Shown piece by piece: positions 32,190 through 34,091 of a DNA stretch of 64,000 nt. Source of the DNA: Comamonadaceae bacterium (GTDB taxonomy: Bacteria; Pseudomonadota; Gammaproteobacteria; Burkholderiales; Burkholderiaceae_C); the NCBI GenBank assembly GCA_947447355.1, contig CANFJF010000008.1, forward strand, positions 1 to 64,000. The letters run 5' to 3'. The notes below the pieces were generated by a model. It saw only the letters and a list, made by a program, of their open reading frames with translations, searched no databases and was not told the origin of the DNA. The first letter of the stretch is position 1; each line of letters starts with the position of its first letter. The translations under genes were made by a program, and so were the position numbers.

Positions 32190-34091
32190 ATGACTCTACA
32201 TTCGACCGTCGCCGACGTTACCGAGCAGATCCGCGAACGCAGCCGCGTTTCCCGCAGCGCCTATCTGAAGCGGCTTGACGGTGCGGCCACACGCGCTGTC
32301 AATGCTGAACGCATGGGTTGCAGCAATGTGGCTCACGCCGTGGCCGGCATGCCGCTGGACGACCGTTTCAAAGTTGTCACCGAGCGCCGCCCCAACATCG
32401 GCATCGTCACCGCTTACAACGACATGTTGTCTGCCCACACGCCGATGCAAACCTATCCTGACCTGATCAAGCGCGAGGCGCGCTTGCATGGCGCTGCGGC
32501 TCAAGTCGCCGGTGGCGTTCCGGCCATGTGCGATGGCGTGACTCAAGGCACGACCGGCATGGAGCTGAGTCTGTTCAGCCGCGACGTCATCGCCATGGCG
32601 ACTGCTGTCGCCTTGAGCCACGACATGTTTGACGGTGCGCTGATGCTCGGTGTTTGCGACAAGATCGTGCCGGGCCTGTTGATTGGTGCGCTGCATTTTG
32701 GTCATTTGCCGACGGTGTTTGTGCCCGCTGGCCCGATGCCAACGGGTCTACCCAACAAAGAAAAAGTCCGCGTCCGCGAACTGGTGGCGCAGGGTCTGGC
32801 AGGCCGCGATGTGCTGATGGACGCCGAACTCAAGTCGTACCACAGCCCCGGTACCTGCACGTTCTACGGCACTGCCAACAGCAACCAGATGCTGCTCGAG
32901 GCGATGGGCCTGCAAGTGCCTGGTACGTCGTTCGTGGCCCCCGGCGGTGACCTGCGTGACGAGTTGACCCGCGAAGCTGCGCGCACGGTGCTGGGCAAAG
33001 CCACTAAAGCTGCGTTATTTTCCGACGGGCCGCCCCTAGGAAAAATGGCCCACTCGGGGGGCAGCGCAGCACACAGAGTGGCAAGCGTGGGGGCCAAGTG
33101 TCCACCCATTGGCCGGGTCGTAGATGAGCGCGCCATCGTCAACGCGATGGTCGCGCTGCTGGCCACCGGCGGCTCAACCAACCACCTGATTCATTGGGTT
33201 GCCGTGGCGCATTCGGCCGGCATCCAAATCAACTGGGACGATTTTTCAAAGCTGTCAGACGTCGTGCCTTTGTTGACGCATGTTTATCCCAACGGCAGCG
33301 CCGATGTGAACCAGTTCCAAGCCGCGGGCGGCACGGGTTTTGTGATTCGAGAACTGCTCAATGGCGGCTTCATGCACGAGGACGTGTTGACGGTACGCCC
33401 AGGCGGCATCCGTGAATACACGGGTGAACCGGCGCTGGTTGACGGCGCGCTGGCTTGGCATCATGTCGATGCCTCCAAAGACGAGACGATTGTTCGGCCA
33501 GCCAGTCAGCCCTTCAGCGCGACCGGTGGACTCAAGTTGCTGCAAGGCAATCTCGGCCGCAGCGTCATCAAGGTCTCGGCGGTTCCGGAAGACCGTCATG
33601 TGATTGAAGCGCCAGCCCGTGTTTTTGATTCACAGGAAGACCTGCACACCGCCTTTAACGCTGGCGAGCTAGACCGCGATGTGATTTGCGTGGTGCGCTG
33701 GCAAGGACCGCAAGCCAACGGCATGCCTGAGCTGCACAAGCTCACGCCGCCCTTGTCGGTGTTGCAGGGCAAGGGTTTCAAAGTGGCGCTGGTGACCGAC
33801 GGCCGCATGAGCGGTGCTTCGGGCAAGGTGCCCGCTGCCATCCATGTCTCGCCCGAGGCAGCCTCAGGTGGCCCGTTGGCGAAAGTCCGGGACGGCGACC
33901 TGATCTTGCTCAACAGCCTGACCGGCGAGTTGCGCGTGTTGCTGAGCGATGCTGATTGGGCCGCACGACCTGTCGCCGAGATGCCGGAGACGCTGCGCGA
34001 CAGCAATGCGTTGGGTATGGGGCGTGAACTGTTTTCCGGCATGCGCAGACAGGCGTTGACAGCAGAAGAAGGAGCCATGTCATGGTTGTGA
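32190..34091 (+). CDS. edd: Phosphogluconate dehydratase with in-frame repeat-derived insertion
   Basis: [60 protein letters not shown]; extra segment [30 protein letters not shown] encoded at ~33010-33099. Confidence 0.94.
33013..33096 (-). repeat. Family-B palindromic repeat inserted in-frame within edd (reverse orientation relative to 18952-19035)
   Basis: Reverse complement TGGCCCCCACGCTTGCCACTCTGTGTGCTGCGCTGCCCCCCGAGTGGGCCATTTTTCCTAGGGGCGGCCCGTCGGAAAATAACG aligns with intergenic copy at 18953+. Confidence 0.8.

Follow-up and report, generated by a model that had tools for sequence, protein, structure and literature searches.

Palindromic repeats that are translated as part of proteins are best known from small intracellular genomes. 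The locus analysed here, in a member of the Comamonadaceae, raises the question of how edd, the gene for the central metabolic enzyme 6-phosphogluconate dehydratase, came to carry 27 codons that most of its relatives do not have, and whether the resulting peptide serves the enzyme. The window, that is, the whole 64,000-nt stretch of DNA under analysis, is C8:1-64000 of a 3.95-Mb draft genome in 179 contigs, and the names of its relatives point to Polaromonas.

The additional segment of edd

The product of edd (32190-34088) was assigned by Pfam to the domains ILVD_EDD_N (310 bits) and ILV_EDD_C (183 bits), and it matched 2gp4 at 743 bits, with the additional segment lying in a gap between two matched stretches of the sequence alignment. 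The edd-eda order is intact (Table 1). When aligned with 24 relatives, Edd was found to be longer by 27 residues (81 bp) between the motifs TVLG and PIG. The closest relative (G009), with an Edd 95-97% identical in amino acid sequence, lacks the insert and its loop reads TVLGIVKSSKRFAPIG; the two genes are 92% identical in nucleotides on either side of the loop but 37% across it. Among five close relatives, the identity of the loop ranges from 37 to 47%, compared to approximately 90-92% on both sides. The divergence is not confined to the segment itself, as its flanks within the loop also differ from the IVKSSKRFAP of the closest relatives, and the length of this loop varies naturally.

A first-pass annotation of the window had described the segment, placed at 33010-33099, as an in-frame insertion of a dispersed palindromic DNA repeat. 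This was borne out both by the alignment and by a blastn search of the genome with positions 33001-33110, which returned 18 places at E <= 0.001, the query itself included and hence 17 others. The best of these were on C18 (88% over 81 nt, E 6e-23) and C19 (86%, E 7e-22), much better than chance would produce. The core defined by a hidden Markov model lies on the minus strand at 33018-33096, placing the earlier position right to within a few bases, and this copy is read antisense as Edd residues 277-303. The resemblance noted previously to an intergenic sequence at 18952-19035 and to the head of a tandem repeat at 46684 is also real, though both are among the weaker relatives of the insert (75% over 80 nt, E 1e-6, with 18952-19030, and 83% over 48 nt, respectively).

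Table 1. Coordinates, strands and supporting details of the edd locus and of repeat copies in the window.
Feature	Position	Strand	Details
edd, 6-phosphogluconate dehydratase	32190..34091	+	Intact ORF of 633 aa with insert; Pfam and 2gp4 match
BRE-like repeat copy within edd	33018..33096	-	nhmmer E 3.7e-18; blastn; 27-aa gap in relatives
Entire divergent Edd loop	32997..33106	+	KATKAAL + insert + CPP vs IVKSSKRFAP in closest relatives (DNA alignment)
eda (KDPG aldolase-like)	34082..34741	+	Directly 3' of edd; named by sequence recognition and position
Intergenic repeat copy	18953..19030	+	26 bp upstream of murJ (19056-20621)
Two tandem repeat copies	46684..46873	+	96-bp spacing, 93% identical; start 5 bp past the end of a predicted gene

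The Edd of the window is not alone in having the insert, which occurs at the same place in several other Polaromonas lineages, and each Edd ortholog that bears the segment carries it as repeat DNA. An assembly error is not at issue, since P0001, represented by 7 contigs, and P0002, a 95%-identical cluster with 26 members, both have the insert. Conversely, it is missing from 43 of the 45 Edd proteins (P0002-P0046) that come immediately after the window's own in closeness, while P0003, with an Edd 93% identical, retains only SVGAKC; the insert can thus be lost in frame.

The repeat family and its counterparts

The genome does hold a repeat family that matches the insert. The unit is GC-rich and approximately 79 bp long, with full copies mostly of 73-81 bp, and its consensus on the strand opposite to edd is GCCCCCACGCTTGTCACTTCGTGTACTGCGCTGCCCCCCGAGGGGGCTAATTTTCCTTGGGGCGGCCCGGCGGAAAAT. 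A profile built from full copies gave 22 matches in the host's own genome, and the complete genome of a congener (G055) contains about 41-42 copies. Three hairpin regions were recognized, two of which covary. The inner hairpin pairs as CAC/GTG or CGC/GCG, together with a GCCCCC/GGGGGC pairing, and the arms of the 3' hairpin change jointly (TTTTCC/GGAAAA, TTTCCCC/GGGGAAA or TTTCACC/GGTGAAA). Across 59 distinct copies, the first hairpin has three pairs, and the last hairpin two, at which both-side changes are frequent and exceed shuffled controls. At column pair 15-29 (G-C/T-A), for example, 18 both-side changes were counted and 56 of 58 copies paired, compared to 31 expected by shuffling; pair 19-25 (A-T/G-C) showed 27 such changes, and pairs 17-28 and 59-79 covary likewise. 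The pairs of the GC block are nearly invariant and hence uninformative on pairing, for or against. A version of the repeat with another 3' arm also exists; the two tandem copies in the window match the repeat in its 5' half but carry this other arm and, judged by translation, some species have the same version inserted in ksgA and gcvP. Further tandem clusters were found on C21, C86 and C10 of the same genome, and a fourfold cluster at L382. No Rfam family was matched by the window.

Most of the intergenic copies (46684-46873 and those on C9, C18, C19, C21 and C86) have the 3' end of a predicted gene at a distance of 4-41 bp, a REP-like placement that would fit with transcribed 3'-end hairpins. 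BRE-like copies adjoin murJ on the 5' side in the window and, as the four tandem copies at L382:2690-3004 in a distant genome of family f4, on the 3' side of a MurJ-like ORF, an adjacency which is possibly coincidental.

Apart from its own genome, the repeat was found in 22 of 24 genomes of the same genus and in 12 others of the host's family. A first sample of 16 genomes from other families of the order gave no match, and in a larger, lightly scored sample 43 of 401 genomes of the order matched, from several families. Copies in family f4, which appears to be Alcaligenaceae-like, keep the core but have different covarying arms; the lexA loci of f4 candidates, inspected as a test of Bordetella identity, have no copy adjacent to them. 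A phage collection was not matched, and the plasmid matches comprise five Variovorax, Burkholderia or Paraburkholderia records only.

The first-pass annotation knew of no description of such an insertion for this family, a statement that holds in part. The repeat is most likely the Betaproteobacterial repeat element (BRE) published in 2011, as judged from descriptions of length, tandem habit and host range, all of which agree. BREs are GC-rich chromosomal elements of approximately 90 bp (75-91), dispersed and in tandem, that occur as full and partial copies in Bordetella and the Comamonadaceae, with a maximum of 29 copies in Polaromonas sp. JS666 (Hot et al., 2011; PMC3110155). The full-length units of the two are thus similar in size, both form tandem clusters with few bases between units, and the Comamonadaceae/Alcaligenaceae range of BREs, with high numbers in Polaromonas, resembles the distribution recorded here. 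One sentence of that study reports some copies wholly inside coding sequences, but its main text gives no frames, genes or comparison with empty orthologs for them (PMC3110155). In the open-licence literature, neither a Polaromonas paper on repeats within proteins nor a description of the host genes, the two-frame rule, the empty and filled orthologs or the recurrence presented below was found.

With respect to behavior, the best precedent is that of the Rickettsia palindromic elements (RPEs), an analogy drawn earlier and an apt one. RPEs, of 105-146 bp with terminal inverted repeats, occur between genes and in frame within conserved protein genes, where they are tolerated and read as peptide (Ogata et al., 2000, reviewed in PMC2229807), and the repeat described here is likewise both intergenic and in frame inside conserved genes. 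Compared by description, it differs in having approximately 79 bp and three hairpin regions rather than a long stem-loop, in residing in genomes of 4-6 Mb, and in using two frames, one per strand. REPs within ORFs provide another precedent: GTAG/CGTC-tagged hairpin units of 20-40 bp are found inside ORFs of many bacteria, in Xanthomonas recB occupying nearly the same position among related species, and some are tied to RAYT transposases (PMC3733652). The present repeat shares with these the short hairpins inside ORFs and the same-site occupation, but its ends carry no GTAG tag. A RAYT as its mover was rejected; Y1_Tnp (RAYT-like) genes do exist, but the loci fetched around them contain no copy of the repeat.

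Frame use and recurrent sites

Edd is one among many invaded genes and is not special. In the host's own genome, in-frame copies are present in eight genes, viz. edd, gcvP, ksgA, metX (named by sequence recognition, Pfam assigning it as an alpha/beta hydrolase), ribF and those encoding an AMP-ligase, an APH-type kinase and a FemAB-like protein, the last of which carries two copies. In G055, the 41 matches comprise 26 intergenic copies, 7 overlapping gene ends and 8 inside intact ORFs, as counted with a simple custom gene caller and checked with Pfam. Seven of these eight ORFs have Pfam domains, and the hosts are a fatty-acid hydroxylase, an ExbB-type channel, FdhD, a sulfate permease, PEP carboxylase, TrpE, a hydrolase and one Pfam-less protein. 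Additional hosts named by Pfam in other genomes include PriA (two inserts), RecQ, UbiA, a CobB/CobQ-like amidotransferase, an M20 peptidase, a ParA-like ATPase, a thioesterase and a YgbB (IspF) protein; the N-terminal copies (ParA-like, YgbB and one of two in the thioesterase) may lie upstream of the true start. These additional hosts were picked through the peptide of one frame, A0, and so carry no information on frame bias.

In the host's own genome and G055, the two sets picked independently of any peptide, all 16 invaded genes use just two of the six frames, 10 being in A0 (FSAGPPQGK...SVGA) and 6 in S2 (APTLVASRTALPPEGANFP...). The proportion of 48 full copies in which a frame is open amounts to 85% for A0 and 98% for S2, with values of 79% for S0, 77% for A2, 52% for S1 and 42% for A1. 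As the unused frames are open in 42-79% of copies, the use of two frames by chance would have a probability of 0.42^16, or approximately 1e-6. Arg or Cys residues abound in the peptides of several unused frames, and the bias suggests that harmful peptides are purged after insertion.

Three of the host genes are occupied recurrently. At least 15 of 84 genomes carry BRE sequence, complete or partial, at one and the same GcvP site; G018 has a tandem array there, G074 a copy with the alternative arm and G067 a truncated copy. The site is empty (VNGVGAIS) in the closest relatives of the window; the GcvP inserts fall into several subgroups, with bases in common within a subgroup. For KsgA, the same site is occupied in approximately ten genomes, and others retain SVGA-type remnants. 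Across the KsgA loci L303-L332, the loop preceding VVGNLPYN was observed to differ widely in length, with a Thr-Gly repeat run in G002, indicating a generally insertion-tolerant spot. With Edd, full inserts are present in five genomes, with remnants or other short loops elsewhere; scans of one genome per species and of metagenomes gave no additional full-length Edd insert.

Two types of Edd loop were seen to segregate in Polaromonas (L203-L232; P0001-P0120), GI(V/I)KxKRFAPIG and GRxT...CPPIG, and they have apparently been swapped between lineages. The boundaries of insertion vary between orthologs, and the loop on either side varies too much for a target-site duplication, which together with terminal inverted repeats would mark a MITE, to be read.

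Origin and fate of the Edd insert

The best explanation, and a highly probable one on the sequence comparisons, is that a BRE-like repeat copy sits in frame and antisense in a variable loop of Edd as a tolerated coding insertion of the RPE kind. Copies would land anywhere in the genome, and selection would remove those causing a frameshift, a stop or a harmful peptide. The survivors would be read as the Pro/Gly/Ser-rich FSAGPPQGKLAPSGGSAxxEAxSVGA or its complement-strand counterpart APTLVASRTALPPEGANFP, and would sit in loops that tolerate disorder; an insert would afterwards drift and be trimmed by in-frame deletion. The presence of the same repeat in frame in dozens of other conserved genes of this genus gives it the appearance of tolerated selfish DNA rather than of a new working part.

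The first-pass annotation had gone further in suggesting that the element was domesticated, which would imply a 27-residue loop with a selected function in Edd, such as regulation, partner binding or stability. The kept reading frame, the strongly non-random choice of frame across genes and the occupation of the same Edd loop in several species could be cited for this, but the choice of frame is accounted for by the purging of harmful frames, and most close relatives lack the insert or hold it eroded. The pN/pS value of the insert is 1.55 (from 5 sequences and approximately 27 codons, and influenced by pairing constraints at the DNA level), whereas the remainder of Edd gives 0.19 and intergenic copies, translated in that frame, give 1.19; the segment evolves like non-coding repeat, with no purifying selection as a peptide. 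An AlphaFold2 model (58 sequences, mean pLDDT 80.8), the fold of which matches that of Shewanella Edd (2gp4), places the insert between helices 254-267 and 307 onwards and predicts a disordered loop, residues 276-302 having pLDDT <50 and no secondary structure. The same peptide in unrelated enzymes argues against an Edd-specific role, and domestication is considered very improbable. The alternative that a low-complexity Gly/Pro/Ala loop simply varied in length and came to resemble the repeat by chance, as Gly/Ala-rich expansions among the varying loops of other Comamonadaceae might suggest, is refuted by the DNA-level matches (E 1e-22) to dispersed copies; the full-length element is present in edd and also, there with covarying arms, at one site in gcvP. 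It is scarcely credible that an assembly artefact or a dying pseudogene is involved, even in a draft of 179 contigs: the same insert recurs in the 7 contigs and the 26-member cluster noted above, the frame is intact over 633 aa, the rest of edd is under purifying selection, and the other edd-like matches listed for the host's own genome are all below 40% identity.

The history of the Edd site is a separate matter and compatible with the rest of the tolerated-insertion reading. A single old insertion that homologous recombination over short tracts carried between Polaromonas lineages, followed by many losses, would account for the same site, the same frame and the related flanks (K/RxT...CPPIG) of all insert-bearing alleles, and for the drop in identity across the loop and flanks of the window's edd. 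Indeed, the likeness of these flanks (K/R-x-T ... KCPPIG), and their difference from IVKSSKRFA, make some recombinational sharing likely. Against a single event, insert-bearing alleles are scattered on an Edd tree built without the loop, and the inserts of the five species (the host's own, designated G000, with G053, G061, G090 and G101) represent different repeat subtypes with no rare or derived base in common. Each is also nearer to a dispersed copy (91, 95, 98.7, 94.8 and 89.5%, respectively) than to the best other Edd insert (84.6, 87.7, 91.1, 91.1 and 87.0%), a comparison biased towards dispersed copies by their larger set. Gene conversion by dispersed copies could mimic repeated insertion, so the two histories are not fully separated; the single insertion is a plausible if not the expected course. 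The most likely cause of the recurrence at Edd, GcvP and KsgA is that tolerant or preferred sites received copies more than once, either through new insertion or when other copies converted them. A bolder proposal, advanced tentatively and rather unlikely as it stands, is that the element re-enters these same loops across species through an undescribed form of targeting or conversion, and that one harmless frame per strand allows it to live both in and between genes.

A genus with genomes of 4-6 Mb thus displays a habit of in-frame repeats in central enzymes across many species. Its filled and empty orthologs, remnants, tandem copies and two usable frames render testable how selection filters translated selfish DNA, whether loops gain function, and how non-autonomous repeats choose their sites.

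Another family of dispersed palindromes, CGTCATTGCGAGCG...CGGCAATCCA, which belongs to the CGTC-tagged REP type, is represented in the window at 17872-17945, 34744-34966, 47504-47580 and 48684-48818, with 156 exact 14-mers in the genome. Finally, short CCACCGCCGCC-type repeats in 12-base steps extend over 43007-43403, where they probably encode a Gly-rich stretch on the other strand.
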